DNA of 37,725 bases from Bacilli bacterium (GTDB lineage: Bacteria > Bacillota_I > Bacilli_A > RF39 > UBA660): positions 1 to 37,725 of the forward strand of contig JAFQXM010000010.1 in assembly GCA_017406955.1 (NCBI GenBank). The letters are read 5' to 3'. Positions 22,257 to 31,576 of this stretch are shown here, piece after piece (positions within the stretch are counted from its first letter, which is position 1; every line of letters starts with the position of its first letter). The position numbers and the translations under genes were made by a program. The notes under the pieces are model-generated. The model searched no databases. It had not been told where the DNA came from and worked only from the letters and a program-made list of their open reading frames with translations.

Positions 22257-23549
22257 ATGAATAAATTACAAAATAGAAAAAATATTTATATTACAATAGC
22301 TATATTAACTTTAGTATTAATAGGTATAGGTTATGCAGTTATAACTAGTAATTTAACTATATCAGGGACTACTAACGTTAAGAAAAATACTTGGGATGTA
22401 CATTTTGAAAATGTCGAAAAACTTCAAGGTAGTGTGAATTCTACTATTAATATTACAGATGATACTACTATTAATTATAGTGCAACATTACAACATTTGG
22501 GCGATTATTTAGAATTTACGGTTGATGTAGTAAATAAGGGTAGTTTTGATGCTATGATAACAAGTCTTTCTAATACTGGATTAACAACTACACAACAAAA
22601 ATATTTAAAATATACTGTAACATATGATTCTGGTGTAGAAATAACAGAAAAACAAATATTAAAAAAAGAAACAGGTAAAGAAAAAATAAGAGTAAGAGTA
22701 GAATATAAGAGTGGTTTAGATGAAAGTGATTTACCAGCTTCAACTAGTGGATTAAGTCTTACATTTACAGTAAATTATGGTGAAGCAGAAAATGCAGTAG
22801 CAATTACTCATCCTACATGTAAAAGAGCGACTATTCTTCATACTGAGATATGTAATTCAACACTTAGTCATACTGCATATAGTTGTCGTGATAAGTTTAA
22901 TAAAGGTGATATCATGACATTTGGAAATTTAGGTACTGTGGGAACATTAGTAGTAGGAGATGCCTTCGATTGTGATGTTAATGGTGATGGAGAATATAAT
23001 CCTAATACAGAGAGATTTTATTATTTAAAGGATTTGAGTACTAATAGTAATTATGGGGTATTAATATATTATGTTAATGTATCAGAAGGAATGCCTGTTG
23101 ATGGTTCGTCAATTGCTTATGATTCTGATAATAATCCAAGAGAAAATGGTCCTAAAACAGCAGTTACGCAATTACCAACTACTTCCCAGTGGAAAAAAGT
23201 TAGTTTAAGTAATAAAATAAGAAAGATTAAAGATGAATTAGGAGTTGAATATTTAGATTTTTCATATAATGGTTATGCAGGAAGACTTCCTTCATTTGAT
23301 GATTTATCAGTTTGTGCAAATAATACTTCTTCTGTTAATTTGAGTAGGAATTGTTTGTTCTTATTGGAAAAAACTTCATATAGGTATTCTGCGCAAGGTG
23401 ATTATTGGTTAGAAGATATAAGATCTGATAATACAGGTACTGGTGTTTATTATGTGTGGGGATTATTTGCACGAGTTTCTTCAACTAATATAGAATCTAT
23501 AGGTGTTCGCCCAGTAATTGAAGTAGAAAAGAGTAAGATAAGTTATTAG
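22257..23549 (+). CDS. TasA/camelysin-like secreted surface protein
   Basis: The 430-residue protein begins with a signal/anchor helix (about 10-27, TLVLIGIGYAVITSNLTISG) followed by a beta-rich domain to about 175. That pattern recalls TasA/CalY-family proteins processed by SipW-type signal peptidases. A second half starts near CKRATILHTEIC and carries a loop D240-x-N242-x-D244-G245-E246 resembling EF-hand or dockerin calcium sites. It ends with a domain containing YNGYAGRLPS, GDYWLEDI and a terminal IGVRPVIEV, a layout seen in secreted proteins of gut Firmicutes. It is probably an abundant envelope or matrix protein, given its near-perfect promoter. It is monocistronic with a strong terminator. 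No signal peptidase gene is nearby. Confidence 0.8.
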   Translation: MNKLQNRKNIYITIAILTLVLIGIGYAVITSNLTISGTTNVKKNTWDVHFENVEKLQGSVNSTINITDDTTINYSATLQHLGDYLEFTVDVVNKGSFDAMITSLSNTGLTTTQQKYLKYTVTYDSGVEITEKQILKKETGKEKIRVRVEYKSGLDESDLPASTSGLSLTFTVNYGEAENAVAITHPTCKRATILHTEICNSTLSHTAYSCRDKFNKGDIMTFGNLGTVGTLVVGDAFDCDVNGDGEYNPNTERFYYLKDLSTNSNYGVLIYYVNVSEGMPVDGSSIAYDSDNNPRENGPKTAVTQLPTTSQWKKVSLSNKIRKIKDELGVEYLDFSYNGYAGRLPSFDDLSVCANNTSSVNLSRNCLFLLEKTSYRYSAQGDYWLEDIRSDNTGTGVYYVWGLFARVSSTNIESIGVRPVIEVEKSKISY

Positions 23550-23575
23550 ATAAGTAGAAATACTTATCTTTTTTT
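23548..23575 (+). terminator. Terminator after the TasA-like gene
   Basis: A perfect 9-bp stem (23548-23556 with 23561-23569) has a GAAA tetraloop followed by a T-tract. The stem starts inside the stop codon, and the tract runs directly into the lepA promoter. Confidence 0.9.
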
Positions 23576-23583
23576 GATATAAT
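23575..23583 (+). promoter_or_regulatory. Extended -10 promoter of lepA
   Basis: TGATATAAT begins on the last T of the preceding terminator tract. The leader is short and contains GGTGAT four nucleotides before the lepA ATG. Confidence 0.68.
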
Positions 23584-23600
23584 TTATATATGGTGATTAT

Positions 23601-25394
23601 ATGAAACAGGAAAACATTAGAAATTTTTGTATTATTGCGCATATTGATCATGGAAAAAGTACTTTAGCTGATAGAATACTTGAGGTAACTGGTGCTATAA
23701 GTGAAAGAGAATTAAAAGCACAGATGTTAGATTCTATGGATATAGAAAGAGAACGTGGTATTACTATTAAACTAAATGCAGTAAGTTTAGATTATAAATA
23801 TAATAATGATAATTATCGTTTTAATTTAATAGATACTCCTGGTCATGTAGATTTTTCTTATGAAGTATCTCGTAGTTTAGCTGCTTGTGAAGGAGCTATA
23901 TTAGTAGTAGATGCTGCACAAGGAATAGAAGCCCAAACCTTAGCTAATTTATATTTAGCTATGGATAATGGATTAGAAATTATTCCTGTTATTAATAAAA
24001 TAGATTTACCTAGTGCTGATGTAGATAAAGTAATAGGTGAGTTAGAAAATATTGGTTTTAATAAAAAAGATGTTATATTAACGAGTGCTAAAACTGGAGT
24101 AGGTATAGATGAATTATTAGATGCTATTATAGAAAACATTCCTTCTCCTGGTGGTAATTCTAAGAATAAAACTAAAGCTTTAATATTTGATAGTATTTTT
24201 GATCCTTATAGAGGGGTAGTTGTTAGTATTAGAGTTGTAGATGGTGAAGTTAAAGTAGGAGATATTATTAAGATGATGGAAACTAATGCTAGTTATGATG
24301 TAGTTAGTTTATATATTAACACTCCTAAAGAAAAAGAAGTTAAGTTTTTAAAAGCAGGAGATGTAGGTTATTTATGTGCATCTATTAAAAGTATTAGTGA
24401 TGTACATGTAGGAGATACTATTACACTAGAAAATAATCCTGCTAAAGAAGCACTACCTGGATATAAACCTATGAAGTCAATGGTATATTCTGGACTTTAT
24501 CCAATAGATTCATCTAAGTTTGAAGATTTAAGAGAAGCTTTAGAAAAACTAAAACTTAATGATGCATCTCTTTCTTTTGAACCTGAAACTTCTAAAGCTT
24601 TAGGTTTTGGGTTTAGATGTGGTTTTTTAGGACTATTACATATGGAAATAATTGAAGAGAGGATTGAAAGAGAATTTGGAATAGATTTAATCGCAACATC
24701 TCCTTCAGTTGTATATGAAGTTATAATGACTGATGGATCTAAAAAAATAGTTGATTCTCCAGTAAAAATGCCTAAGAGAGAACTTATTTCTAAAACATTA
24801 GAACCTTATGTTAAGACTTCAATATTTACACCTAGTGATTATATAGGTCCAATTATGGAATTATGTCAAGATAAACGAGGTACATTTATTAATATGGATT
24901 ATATTGATAAAGATAGGGTTACTATTAACTATGAATTACCTTTATCAGAAATAGTCTATGACTTTTTTGATAAATTAAAATCTTTTACTAAAGGATATGC
25001 TTCTTTTGACTATGAATTAATTGGTTATAAAGAAAGTAATTTAGTAAAGATGGATATATTATTAAATGGTGAAATTGTAGATGCTTTAAGTGTTATTGTA
25101 CATAAAGATTTTGCTTATAATAGAGGAAAAGCTGTAGTAGGGAAACTTAAAGAAATTATTCCTAGACAGATGTTTGAAGTACCAATACAAGCTGCGATTG
25201 GTTCACATATTATATCTAGGACTGATATTAAAGCATTAAGAAAAAATGTATTAGCTAAATGTTATGGGGGAGATGTTTCTCGTAAGAAAAAATTATTAGA
25301 AAAACAAAAAGAAGGTAAGAAAAGGATGAAACAAATTGGAAGTGTTGAAGTTCCACAAGAAGCATTCTTATCAATACTTTCTACAAAGGAGTGA
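23601..25394 (+). CDS. lepA: Elongation factor 4 (LepA) GTPase
   Basis: LepA is a ribosome-bound translational GTPase implicated in initiation and 30S biogenesis. The 597 residues match the family. G1 is AHIDHGKST (13-21), followed by RERGITI, DTPGH and NKID. EF-G-like domains II, III and V come next, then the LepA-specific C-terminal domain with [20 protein letters not shown]. It starts an operon with the SpoIIID-like gene (4-nt gap) and hemW. The lepA-hemW link is common in Firmicutes; the regulator between them is unusual. The stop is TGA. Confidence 0.98.
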
Positions 25395-25398
25395 TAAT

Positions 25399-25860
25399 AT
25401 GAAAAATAGTGAAATACTAAAGTGTGCAAGGGATTATATTAATAGTAGTGATACTGTAGAACAGATTGCGGATAAATATGGTGTTAGTAAAAAGACTTTA
25501 CAAAATAATTTTAAAAAATTAAAAGATATTGATGAAGAAATATATAATTCTGTAGAAGAGAAAAAACAAGTTAATCAAGTTGTTGGTAGAAAAAAAGGTG
25601 GTAGTATTAGCGGTCGTTTTGTTAGCTATACTGAAGAAGAAGCTAATATGATTGCGGATGCTATTATAAATCAGCAATTAACTTATAAAGAAGCAGAAGA
25701 AAAGTTTGGTAAAGCACATTCTACTATATATGATATGGTTCACAGTGATTTTATTAGTGATGAGAAAAAAAGTAAGTTAGACTTAATTGCGATTGCTAAT
25801 AATAAAGGTCAAACTATTATTGATGAAGAGGAAATAATTAAATCTAATGGCAGTAAATAG
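25399..25860 (+). CDS. SpoIIID-like regulator with two helix-turn-helix domains
   Basis: The 153-residue protein resembles the sporulation regulator SpoIIID but doubled. The first half has TVEQIADKYGVSKKTLQNNF (residues 19-38), then a helix (EIYNSVEEKKQVNQ) and RKKGG, as in SpoIIID. The second half has a second HTH, TYKEAEEKFGKAHSTIYDMV (95-114), followed by another helix. SpoIIID is normally about 80-95 residues with one HTH and acts with sigma-E in the mother cell. Here it may be a fused dimer or a distinct regulator. The start is set by AAGGAG before the ATG at 25399. It is cotranscribed with lepA and overlaps hemW by 14 nt. Confidence 0.75.
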   Translation: MKNSEILKCARDYINSSDTVEQIADKYGVSKKTLQNNFKKLKDIDEEIYNSVEEKKQVNQVVGRKKGGSISGRFVSYTEEEANMIADAIINQQLTYKEAEEKFGKAHSTIYDMVHSDFISDEKKSKLDLIAIANNKGQTIIDEEEIIKSNGSK

Positions 25861-26941
25861 TTGTTATATACATATTCCTTTTTGTGATAATATTTGTTCT
25901 TATTGTGATTTTTGTAAGATGTATTATAATTCTAATTTAGTAGATAAATACTTATTAGAATTAGAAAGAGAGATAGATAGTAAATATAAAGGAGAAGTTT
26001 TAAATACTATTTATATTGGAGGAGGAACTCCTAGTTCATTAAATATAAAACAATTAAATAAGTTATTTTCTATTATTAATAAGCTAAATAAAAGTAATAA
26101 TTGTGAATATACTATAGAAGGTAATTTTAATAATACGACTAAAGAAAAATTAGATTTATATAAAAAATATGGTATTAATAGACTTAGTTTTGGTATTGAA
26201 AGTATTAATCAAGATAATTTAAAATTTTTAAATAGAGAGCTAAATATAAATGAAGTAAAGAATATAATTGATTATTCCAAGTCTATTGGTCTTAATAATA
26301 TTAATTTAGATTTGATATATGCTTTACCTAAAGAAGATATTAATATATTAAATAATGATATAGATTTTATTTTATCTTTAAATGTTAATCATATTTCAAC
26401 ATATTCTTTGATGATAGAGGATAATACTAAATTAAAAATTGATAATATTGAAAATATTGATGAAGAATTAGATTATTTAATGTATAAGAATATATGTAAG
26501 AAATTATCTAATTATAATCATTATGAAATTAGTAATTTTTGTAAGGATGGTTTTGAATCTAAACATAATTTATGTTATTGGAATAATGATTATTATTATG
26601 GTTTTGGATTAGGTGCTTCTAGTTATATTGATAATATACGTAGTTCTAATACTAAATCATTAACTAATTATTTAAAAGGTGATTATATACTAGAAAAAGA
26701 AGAGTTAAATATAGATGATGTTATTGAATATGAAATCATGTTAAAACTGAGACTCAAAGATGGTATTAATTTAAAAGTATTTAAAGATAAGTATTCTAAA
26801 GAATTAATTGATTTATATGATTATAGTATATTAGTTGATAATAAATTATTAATACTTGATAATGATAATTTATTTATACCTGAAGATAAATTTTATATAA
26901 GTAATGAAATTATAGTTAAATTACTTCAAAATAAAATATAG
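25847..26941 (+). CDS. hemW: Radical SAM protein HemW
   Basis: HemW is a radical SAM protein related to coproporphyrinogen III dehydrogenase and regarded as a haem chaperone rather than a HemN enzyme. The 364-residue protein begins with HIPFCDNICSYCDF, giving the 4Fe-4S cysteines C13, C17 and C20, plus an additional C23. IYIGGGTPSSL is the SAM-binding glycine motif. The HemW C-terminal domain has HNLCYWNNDYYYGFGLGASSY. The ATG overlaps the preceding stop, so translation is probably coupled. Neighbouring lepA supports the call. No other haem gene is in the window. Confidence 0.93.
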   Translation: MAVNSCYIHIPFCDNICSYCDFCKMYYNSNLVDKYLLELEREIDSKYKGEVLNTIYIGGGTPSSLNIKQLNKLFSIINKLNKSNNCEYTIEGNFNNTTKEKLDLYKKYGINRLSFGIESINQDNLKFLNRELNINEVKNIIDYSKSIGLNNINLDLIYALPKEDINILNNDIDFILSLNVNHISTYSLMIEDNTKLKIDNIENIDEELDYLMYKNICKKLSNYNHYEISNFCKDGFESKHNLCYWNNDYYYGFGLGASSYIDNIRSSNTKSLTNYLKGDYILEKEELNIDDVIEYEIMLKLRLKDGINLKVFKDKYSKELIDLYDYSILVDNKLLILDNDNLFIPEDKFYISNEIIVKLLQNKI

Positions 26942-26974: not shown

Positions 26975-27556
26975 ATGGAAAGAGAAGAGATGTTTTTAGA
27001 TGAACTTAGTTATATTAATGATGAAGATTTAAGTGAATGTTTACTTAATATTATTAATATGCTTCCAGATTATTGGTTTAGTGAAGCTGCATCTTCTACT
27101 GGAAAGTACCATCCTGAATATGCTTTAGGAAATGGTGGTTTACTCCGTCATAGTAAAGCTGCAATGAGAATAGGGTATGAATTACTTTCCAATCCTACAA
27201 TAGGGGATAAGTATACTTCTAGAGAGAAAGATTTAATGCTTATGGCATTACTTATTCATGACGGATTAAAATTAGGTATGCCAAAAGAAAAGTATACTAG
27301 ATTTGATCATCCGATATTGATGGGAAGTTTTATACTAGATAATAAAGAAAAAATTGGTTTAAGTTTAAAAGATGCTGAATTTATGGATGATGTTATTAAA
27401 ACACATATGGGTCCTTGGACTACTGATTATAATGGAAATGATGTTTTAGAAAAACCTAAAACTAAATATCAGAATTTTGTTCATATGTGTGATTTTTTAG
27501 CAAGTCGTAAATGTTTATTAGTTCCTTTTGATGAGGATAATAATATAAGTGTCTAA
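26975..27556 (+). CDS. HD domain metal-dependent phosphohydrolase
   Basis: This is a 193-residue soluble protein. It has the HD superfamily arrangement of His and Asp residues: H59 (LLRHSKAA), H95-D96 (LLIHDGLK), H112 (FDHPILMG), H144 (THMGPW) and D173 (MCDFLASRK). The five conserved residues suggest an active, probably two-metal, phosphohydrolase. The nucleotide or phosphoester substrate is unknown. It differs from the GTPase- or RelA-type HD enzymes in having no extra domain. AGGAGATG precedes the ATG, and a strong terminator overlaps the stop. Confidence 0.85.
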   Translation: MEREEMFLDELSYINDEDLSECLLNIINMLPDYWFSEAASSTGKYHPEYALGNGGLLRHSKAAMRIGYELLSNPTIGDKYTSREKDLMLMALLIHDGLKLGMPKEKYTRFDHPILMGSFILDNKEKIGLSLKDAEFMDDVIKTHMGPWTTDYNGNDVLEKPKTKYQNFVHMCDFLASRKCLLVPFDEDNNISV

Positions 27557-27572
27557 TAGACACTTATTTTTT
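27545..27572 (+). terminator. Terminator after the HD-domain gene
   Basis: ATAAGTGTCT (27545-27554) pairs with AGACACTTAT (27558-27567) around AAT and a T-run follows. The stem includes the final codons and first base of the stop codon. Confidence 0.85.
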
Positions 27573-29520: not shown

Positions 29521-29563
29521 ATAAAATTTCATTATATGTAAATATTATTAGTAGGTGATGTAT

Positions 29564-30601
29564 ATGCATTCTATTGATTTAAAAAAATTTAATATTAGAA
29601 CTGATTTATTAGTTGATGAAATAGAATTAAATAAAAAAGATATGTCTGATTTTATTAAAACTACTAAGTATGATAATATTTCTGTTGAAGAAGTATTAAT
29701 AGATGAGGTTAATAATAAAATATTTAATAAAAAGAATGGATATTATAAAACAATCAATTTTTTAGATATAACAGATAAAGATAATTACAATAAAGTAGAA
29801 AAAGTATTTATTGAAGTTTTAAAAGATTTACTTAAAGATCTAAATATTGATAAAAATAATAGTTGTTTAATAATTGGTTTAGGTAATGATAAATCTACTC
29901 CAGATTCTTTAGGTCCTAAGGTAATTGATGGTATTCTAGTTACTAATCATTTATTTAAATTAGGTGATGTAGAAGAGGGGTATAGAAAAACGGCAAGTTT
30001 TAAACCTAGTGTTACAGGATTAACTGGAATTGAAACTAAAGATATTATTGAATCATTAGTAGAAAAAACTAAACCAGATTTTTTAATTATAATTGATTCC
30101 TTATCATCTTCTAATTTAGATAGATTAAATAAAACTATTCAACTTACTTCTGCAGGAATTTCTCCTGGTAGTGGTATAGGTAATAATAGAGTAGAAATTA
30201 GTAGAGATACTTTAAATATACCGGTTATTGCTATTGGTATACCTACTGTTGTAGATGCTACTACAATTGTTAATGATACATTTTTGTATTTATTTAAACA
30301 ATTAAGTTTTAATATAGATAATATAGATAATAATAAAATAAAGTTAGTTCCTACTACTAATTTAGATTATAGTCATCATAAAAATACATTAACTAAGGAA
30401 GAAAAAGAAAAATTATTGGGATATGTTGGTACATTGAATGAATTGGAATTTAAAGAATTAATATATGAAGTATTGACTCCTATAAATTCTAATTTAATAG
30501 TAACTCCTACTGAAATAGATTTTGTAATAGAAAAGCTTGCTTTATTGATATCTAGTGGTATTAATAAATGTTTGCATAAAAAATTTAATCCGACAAAATA
30601 A
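29564..30601 (+). CDS. gpr: Germination protease GPR
   Basis: GPR is the aspartic-type (A25) endoprotease that degrades small acid-soluble spore proteins at germination. From the ATG at 29564 it has 345 residues. The N-terminal propeptide leads to IRTDLLVDE, close to where the zymogen is autoprocessed in Bacillus. The two catalytic aspartates are D114 in LGNDKSTPDSLGP and D178 in FLIIIDSL. Also conserved are TGLTGIETKDI, HPGSG-like SPGSGIGNNRVE and IGIPTVVDATTI. AGGTGAT precedes this ATG; in-frame starts at 29555 and 29558 lie in the ribosome site. Its presence argues strongly for true endospores. It is divergent from rpsT and precedes spoIIP. Confidence 0.96.
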   Translation: MHSIDLKKFNIRTDLLVDEIELNKKDMSDFIKTTKYDNISVEEVLIDEVNNKIFNKKNGYYKTINFLDITDKDNYNKVEKVFIEVLKDLLKDLNIDKNNSCLIIGLGNDKSTPDSLGPKVIDGILVTNHLFKLGDVEEGYRKTASFKPSVTGLTGIETKDIIESLVEKTKPDFLIIIDSLSSSNLDRLNKTIQLTSAGISPGSGIGNNRVEISRDTLNIPVIAIGIPTVVDATTIVNDTFLYLFKQLSFNIDNIDNNKIKLVPTTNLDYSHHKNTLTKEEKEKLLGYVGTLNELEFKELIYEVLTPINSNLIVTPTEIDFVIEKLALLISSGINKCLHKKFNPTK

Positions 30602-30637: not shown

Positions 30638-31576
30638 ATGAAAAAGAAATTTATTACTAAACGAAAGAATTATTTTATTAACTATAAATTTCTTTTTATA
30701 ATTATATTTTATTGTATTGGTGTATATATTGGATTTAGATATCTAAATAATAGAAGTAGTGTTGATGATAAAAAAATTGTACAAATATTATTAAGTACTT
30801 CTAATCATCATAATAAACATAAGAATAATATGATTAATAAGTTAGTTTCTAAAGTTAGTATTAATAACTCAGTAATGTTAATCAATAGTAATTATAATAA
30901 ATTGGTTGATAATAAGGGTAATGTTCAAAAAGATGATAGTATAAATAGAAATAAAGACAATCCAATGATTTATATTTATAATACTCATCAGAAAGAAGAA
31001 TATGCATCTAGTAGTTATGTTGAATATAGTGTTAAACCTACAGTTCAAATGGCTAATTATATATTGGAAGATATATTTAATAAAAATGGTTTAAAAACTT
31101 TTGTAGAAGAGAATTCAGTAAAAGATATTCTTAATGCTCATAAATGGAATTATTCATATAGTTATTTAGCGAGTAGATCTTTAATGGAAAATGCAAAACA
31201 AAGCAATCCTAGTTTAAAGTACTTTATTGATATTCATAGAGATAGTTTGGTGAAAGATAAAACAACTATTCAAATTAATAATAAAAATTATGCTTCAATA
31301 TTATTTATTGTTGGTTTAGAAAATCAAAATTATAAGGATAATTTAGCGTTTACTAATAAGATTAATAATGTTATTAATAATAAATATCCTACATTATCTA
31401 AAGGAATATATAAGAAAGGTGGACGAGGAGTAAACGGAGTTTATAATCAAGATTTTTCTTCTAATACTATTTTAATTGAGATTGGTGGTAAAGATAATAC
31501 TATCGAAGAAGTACTTAATACATCATTAGCTTTTGCAGAATGCTTTATGGAGGTGCTATCAAATAATGAAGGGTAA
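30638..31576 (+). CDS. spoIIP: Stage II sporulation protein P
   Basis: SpoIIP is a peptidoglycan amidase/endopeptidase that works with SpoIID and SpoIIM during engulfment. The 312-residue protein has a signal anchor (about 17-35), a variable linker and the amidase domain. Catalytic and zinc-binding features are NTHQKEEY (H117, E120/E121), FIDIHRD (H200, D202) and ILIEIGG (E281). The sequence GGRGVNGVYNQDFSSNTILI is characteristic of SpoIIP. GGTGAT before the ATG is the typical local ribosome site. It follows gpr and overlaps the next gene by 11 nt, as gpr-spoIIP-yqxA in B. subtilis. Confidence 0.95.
   Translation: MKKKFITKRKNYFINYKFLFIIIFYCIGVYIGFRYLNNRSSVDDKKIVQILLSTSNHHNKHKNNMINKLVSKVSINNSVMLINSNYNKLVDNKGNVQKDDSINRNKDNPMIYIYNTHQKEEYASSSYVEYSVKPTVQMANYILEDIFNKNGLKTFVEENSVKDILNAHKWNYSYSYLASRSLMENAKQSNPSLKYFIDIHRDSLVKDKTTIQINNKNYASILFIVGLENQNYKDNLAFTNKINNVINNKYPTLSKGIYKKGGRGVNGVYNQDFSSNTILIEIGGKDNTIEEVLNTSLAFAECFMEVLSNNEG

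Follow-up and report, generated by a model that had tools for sequence, protein, structure and literature searches.

A SpoIIID-like protein with two helix-turn-helix modules encoded between lepA and hemW in uncultured Bacilli

Which kind of protein is encoded in the narrow interval between lepA and hemW of an uncultured Bacilli bacterium, and is it connected to sporulation? The interval lies in a DNA stretch of 37,725 nucleotides (contig JAFQXM010000010.1 of assembly GCA_017406955.1), which was analyzed as a whole and is referred to here as the window. SpoIIID is a mother-cell regulator of Bacilli and Clostridia that consists of one module and binds DNA as a monomer. An earlier note on the same DNA had described the interval as harboring a 153-aa chain with two SpoIIID-type helix-turn-helix (HTH) modules at residues 19–38 and 95–114, and had suggested that it ties a sporulation regulator to a housekeeping operon. 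Annotation of the region led to the following features.

23555..23583, forward strand: promoter-like site before lepA (TAGAAA, 17 nt, TATAAT with TG before it)
23601..25394, forward strand: lepA, translation elongation factor 4 (NCBIfam equivalog TIGR01393, 991 bits)
25385..25391, forward strand: ribosome-binding site AAAGGAG of the SpoIIID-like ORF, within the 3' end of lepA
25399..25860, forward strand: gene for the SpoIIID-like two-module protein (153 aa, ATG start, stop included)
25399..25617, forward strand: module 1, residues 1–73, SpoIIID-type HTH and basic stretch (by Pfam, hhalign, and VIA-align)
25456..25530, forward strand: HTH of module 1, residues 20–44 (AlphaFold helices 20–26 and 31–44)
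25627..25803, forward strand: module 2, residues 77–135, HTH and the helix after it, GG basic stretch absent
25684..25740, forward strand: HTH of module 2, residues 96–114 (AlphaFold helices 96–103 and 107–114)
25847..26941, forward strand: hemW, radical SAM heme chaperone (NCBIfam equivalog TIGR00539, 283.5 bits)
26975..27556, forward strand: terminal gene of the likely operon (193 aa), resembling an HD hydrolase by eye only
27545..27567, no strand assigned: intrinsic-terminator-like hairpin at the operon end (2 found vs. 0.5 expected)

The predicted helices fall where the earlier note had placed its two HTH modules, and the equivalog scores of both neighbors bear out the location between lepA and hemW. 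The SpoIIID-like ORF starts 4 nt past the lepA stop, and its 3' end overlaps the hemW start (ATG at 25847) by 14 nt. The 193-aa gene, for which no match was found in NCBIfam or Pfam, is also located downstream of hemW in relatives. Based on the promoter-like site before lepA and the terminator-like hairpin after the fourth gene, lepA, the SpoIIID-like gene, hemW, and the 193-aa gene look like one operon. By eye, a further hairpin at about 23549–23575 (GATAAGT-AGAAAT-ACTTATC, then T's) closes the gene upstream of lepA.

Module 1 was assigned by several independent searches. Among 24,736 Pfam families, SpoIIID (PF12116) ranked top for the whole protein with an E value of 6.1e-10 and a score of 39.5 bits, above the gathering cut-off of 27 bits; two stretches were matched, the one in module 1 covering residues 7–68. 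Residues 1–79 match a complete SpoIIID including its basic C-terminal stretch, which in module 1 reads GRKKGGSISGR (residues 63–73). Comparison via hhalign with 29 ordinary SpoIIIDs from the window's taxonomic family resulted in a probability of 98.9 for an alignment of 72 columns, which includes the basic GG stretch (GRKKGG in module 1, RHIRGG in ordinary SpoIIID). The closest solved sequence was SpoIIID structure 2L0K (E 0.0089), and a fold search with VIA-align placed the same structure first for module 1, with Z 10.1 and an rmsd of 6.6 over 79 residues; the second-best chain had Z 6.2. Module 1 thus shares with SpoIIID (PF12116; TIGR02844; PDB 2L0K) an HTH and a basic C-terminal stretch within one unit, the two parts described as essential for DNA binding by SpoIIID in PMC3789822, which cites Himes et al. 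2010. Furthermore, SpoIIID was matched in 13 of 15 aligned relatives, more often than any other family. Every test applied identified module 1 as a complete unit of SpoIIID type.

For module 2, the claim of a SpoIIID-type module held in a weaker form. In the profile search of the halves that the earlier note had proposed, SpoIIID was still the top Pfam family for the second half alone, yet with a weak match (E 0.013–0.015) below the gathering score, and its predicted fold was generic: modeled alone it had a mean pLDDT of 78.5, and the fold search revealed generic HTHs tied near Z 5, with 2L0K absent from the matches listed. Could it be an unrelated HTH fused onto a SpoIIID rather than a duplicate of it? 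The many tied HTH folds and the missing GG basic stretch point that way, and so do the second halves of the window's protein and nine relatives, which at E<=0.1 matched the generic family HTH_psq as often as SpoIIID (7 of 10 each). Against a fusion of this kind, hhalign aligned module 2 to the same ordinary SpoIIIDs with a probability of 97.8 over 60 columns, including the helix past the HTH; in 40 column-permuted controls for each half the maximum probability was 30.1 (half 1) and 2.4 (half 2), a type of control with which a generic HTH resemblance remains compatible. In addition, the ordinary SpoIIID profile matched the second half in G048, G008, and G051 with 32.2, 31.6, and 30.4 bits, respectively, over up to 73 positions. 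An unrelated second HTH appears rather improbable to us. Based on the matches in these three relatives, module 2 likely originated from SpoIIID across the family, with a weaker case for the window's own protein, and a duplication giving rise to the module pair is plausible. Module 2 together with the tail has a net charge of -6 in the window's protein, compared with +3 for module 1, so that its partner may be a protein instead of DNA; among 15 proteins, this charge spans -6 to +4.

AlphaFold prediction of the whole protein, based on 14 sequences, revealed two three-helix HTH units, each with a further helix (mean pLDDT 86.4, pTM 0.47). A Foldseek search with the full model resulted in nothing at E<=0.001, probably because the modules are not fixed relative to each other, as the pTM indicates. 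Taken as the SpoIIID of this genome as such, which the earlier description would have allowed, the protein did not hold up: it scored 34.8 bits against NCBIfam equivalog TIGR02844, under the cut-off of 111.5 bits, and an orthologue of SpoIIID has a single module in about 80–100 aa. In contrast to SpoIIID, with its one module in about 85 aa and its own locus, the window's protein carries two modules in 153 aa, is encoded in the lepA operon, and has a second module of negative net charge. Other HTH families (HTH_psq, HTH_23, and Sigma70_r4) share the fold and a weak sequence likeness, chiefly with module 2, and all score below SpoIIID for the whole protein.

A phage origin was considered as well, since the earlier note had named best matches to terminase-type HTH proteins as the result that would speak against its reading. 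No such outcome was obtained. The best PHROG was a SpoIIID family (PHROG 11726, phage-encoded SpoIIID-like proteins; E 4.7e-9), ahead of the terminase small subunit phrog_309 (E 0.0025), and a scan of viral contigs revealed no relative of the window's protein, so that a terminase-type or phage origin is not supported. The model of PHROG 11726 comprises 89 positions, the length of one module.

To what extent is this arrangement shared? Among 141 genomes of the window's taxonomic family, nearly one per genus, lepA was present in 130, and the DNA downstream of it was read for 120 relatives plus the window (121 genomes, 339 ORFs). hemW was found within this stretch in 85 of the 121 genomes, in 28 of these within 142 nt. 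A profile built solely from the ordinary SpoIIIDs of the family (the protein of G030 belonged to this training set) was run on all 339 ORFs and resulted in 28 matches at E<0.003, 27 of them in the gene directly downstream of lepA and the remaining one a gene further on; the weakest match had 12.1 bits, compared with a maximum of 11.5 bits in 6780 shuffled sequences. A SpoIIID-like gene thus directly follows lepA in 27 of 121 genomes, as a single-module version in G030 and G128 and as a two-module version in the window and others. Family-wide profile searches of two partly overlapping sets (386 and 288 genomes) revealed full-length relatives (E<1e-15) in 30 genomes; some of them were part of the query alignments, by which their scores, though not their genomic places, are inflated. 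In most of these 30 genomes, the gene starts -4 to +13 nt from the lepA stop. The locus was readable in 29. Of these, 28 have lepA upstream, with one intervening gene in G419, and in G213 the contig ends there; hemW is located downstream in 27 (none seen in G370 and G273). A false member picked up by profile iteration, G119_961_1572, RhuM-like by eye, was excluded from every count.

In public records overlapping with the family sample, lepA preceded hemW at 29 of 38 loci, 11 of which had an intervening protein matching the SpoIIID profile (E<0.003). The same arrangement was identified in CADBGE010000037.1 and CAMOXZ010000020.1, titled as uncultured Erysipelotrichaceae and Bacillales bins. A class-level sample of 296 genomes contained 20 matches outside the window's family, none spanning both halves. 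Hence, the position at lepA and hemW is conserved and not a local accident, and, within the samples searched, the two-module form is confined to a single taxonomic family.

As regards expression, the earlier note had considered an internal sporulation promoter between lepA and hemW. This idea was abandoned: the ORF start is tightly coupled to lepA across a gap of 4 nt, a sigma-E-like consensus pattern was not enriched in the window (36 found vs. 46.7 expected in shuffles), and the promoter-like site before lepA is of vegetative type. By eye, a TATAAT or TAAAAT box was seen before lepA in all 13 upstream regions inspected (window and 12 relatives), in 11 of the 13 preceded by TGN. Judging from these motifs, the operon would be transcribed from a vegetative-type promoter before lepA.

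The sporulation context assumed in the earlier note was confirmed at the level of the genome, which carries Spo0A (143 bits), SpoIVA (355 bits), GPR, and SpoIIP. For the uncultured Bacilli of order RF39, to which the window's genome probably belongs, PMC10868615 predicts spores whose "phenotype and regulation" would be "markedly different" from those of known relatives; SpoIIID does not occur in that paper. Among the 141 family genomes, Spo0A was found in 129, SpoIVA in 118, and ordinary SpoIIID (>=60 bits) in 78. SpoIVA was detected in 26 of the 27 genomes that carry the lepA-linked gene, compared with 78 of the 94 that lack it (Fisher p 0.115). Looser gene lists yielded p values of 0.068 and 0.039; of the genomes with longer proteins after lepA, only G071 and G088 entered the loosest list. 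The sole genome with the lepA-linked gene and without SpoIVA (G028) possesses an ordinary SpoIIID and two Spo0A matches. A tree-based test of this association had no power, as it comprised 6 to 8 usable pairs. The link of the lepA-linked gene to sporulation is thus suggestive only. SpoIIID-like proteins were also observed away from lepA, in frames of 159–168 aa (G118:C1:31094-31477, G035:C23:5095-5487, and G094:C3:793710-793895), of which those of G118 and G035 each matched in two stretches and that of G094 (167 aa) in one. The presence of such a protein in G094, in which SpoIVA was not detected, disfavors a strict link to sporulation.

If spores are formed, does the lepA-linked protein do the work of SpoIIID here, as a divergent, fused mother-cell regulator active in sporulation? 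The window's genome has spore genes, and the separate single-HTH spoIIID that the earlier note proposed to look for was not recovered: in this genome, 93.7% complete, no other SpoIIID-type gene scored above the cut-off, and elsewhere a single weak stretch of 11.7 bits was seen. Of the 27 genomes encoding the lepA-linked protein, 8 lack ordinary SpoIIID, and G128 has no good SpoIIID-type match other than its lepA-linked gene. On the other side, 19 of the 27 genomes (18 leaving out G128) also contain an ordinary SpoIIID, compared with 51 of 94 genomes without the gene (p 0.18); among SpoIVA-positive genomes, the presence of one does not predict the absence of the other (Fisher p 0.64); and 29 of the 37 genomes read that have SpoIVA and lack ordinary SpoIIID have no lepA-linked SpoIIID-like gene either. 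Together with a promoter of vegetative appearance before lepA, this makes a takeover of the SpoIIID function improbable, and replacement of SpoIIID by the lepA-linked gene was rejected as a general explanation. Based on the co-occurrence in 19 of 27 genomes, the SpoIIID-like gene looks like a paralogue rather than a replacement. Apart from this gene, ordinary SpoIIID (>=60 bits) is absent from 44 of 118 SpoIVA-positive genomes, and many predicted spore formers seem to do without SpoIIID or to have replaced it.

Major differences were detected in what occupies the interval between lepA and hemW, even within the window's genus. In G288, with lepA 89% and hemW 73% identical to those of the window, the intervening protein has 215 aa and about three modules; with the SpoIIID profile, two of them score 18.5 and 25.8 bits. 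The first module is the weak one, at 6.5 bits with the module profile, and a blastp comparison with the window's 153-aa protein gave an E value of only 0.047. In G198 (lepA 85%), both lepA and hemW are present without an HTH gene between them; the interval holds an ORF of 167 aa and a gene whose product contains an ADP-ribosyltransferase domain (PF03496, E 1.2e-10). A third relative from the genus, G069, yielded neither lepA nor hemW. Beyond the genus, the proteins in this position have 211 aa in G454 and G456 (three matched modules in G456, the one tested) and 382 aa in G396. Module numbers thus range from one (G030 and G128) over two (window) and about three (G288 and G456) to a longer chain (G396).

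In two relatives, the gene before hemW encodes a PF03496 ADP-ribosyltransferase domain in place of an HTH protein (L304:755-1504, E 1e-10; L254:1318-2055, E 7e-7), and the interval thus accepts unrelated genes. Proteins of 423–582 aa following lepA at L116:171-1919, L113:170-1582, L119, and L172 (genomes G138, G107, G098, and G071, respectively) displayed recurring HTH-like stretches by eye and are possibly long module chains; the 582-aa protein of G138 had no Pfam match.

This turnover bears on the main competing explanation, a fast-changing HTH family with a role outside sporulation, such as regulating its own operon, mobile DNA, or phages, in a recombination-prone slot after lepA. The differing contents within one genus (two modules in 153 aa in the window, about three in 215 aa in G288, unrelated genes in G198) fit it, as does the patchy distribution on a HemW tree: across 78 genomes with a HemW of more than 280 aa within the stretch, the trait occurred in 26 rows and required a minimum of 19 changes, compared with a mean of 22.1 in shuffles, 38 of 500 of which were as low. 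However, no phage or plasmid hallmarks were seen at the slot, the viral contig scan was without relatives, and dN/dS values between four close pairs were low (0.237, 0.085, 0.165, and 0.316), which indicates that the SpoIIID-like gene is under constraint. We regard such a non-sporulation family as possible, though on the unlikely side.

Altogether, we favor with some confidence a vegetatively expressed, SpoIIID-derived transcription regulator with a double HTH, encoded by a lepA-linked paralogue. Module 1 would grip a SpoIIID-type site, and module 2 would add a second HTH that reads or steadies neighboring DNA. Growing cells would produce the protein alongside LepA and HemW, from the promoter before lepA and with translational coupling of its gene to both neighbors, and the paralogue, kept mainly in predicted spore formers, would probably adjust a sporulation- or stress-related set of genes. 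DNA binding, expression as an operon, and any sporulation role of the window's protein are what we infer from sequence. Against this regulator speak its fast turnover, which is unusual for a core regulator, and the ability of generic HTHs to match SpoIIID weakly; the absence of such a gene between lepA and hemW in G198, of the same genus, also weakens it. More tentatively, in this uncultured family of Bacilli with small genomes the lepA–hemW interval might be a workshop in which SpoIIID modules multiply, get lost, and are exchanged, giving rise to lineage-specific multi-HTH readers in growing cells that could rewire or gate sporulation.

The data suggest an undescribed, fast-changing kind of gene regulator, in which the domain of a spore regulator has been placed inside a housekeeping operon, and with the natural two- and three-module forms one could test how the reading of operators by several modules evolves. 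Among the titles and abstract starts of the matches listed from the open-licence literature, no earlier description of a multi-module or lepA-linked SpoIIID was found.

Two further observations concern the surroundings of the operon. Close downstream of the lepA–hemW block, gpr (29555–30601, 308.9 bits) and spoIIP (30638–31576, 163.5 bits) are located. At 22257–23549, the window encodes a protein of 430 aa that starts with a hydrophobic segment and has no match in Pfam or NCBIfam; partial relatives of this protein come after the SpoIIID-like gene in G273 (L195).
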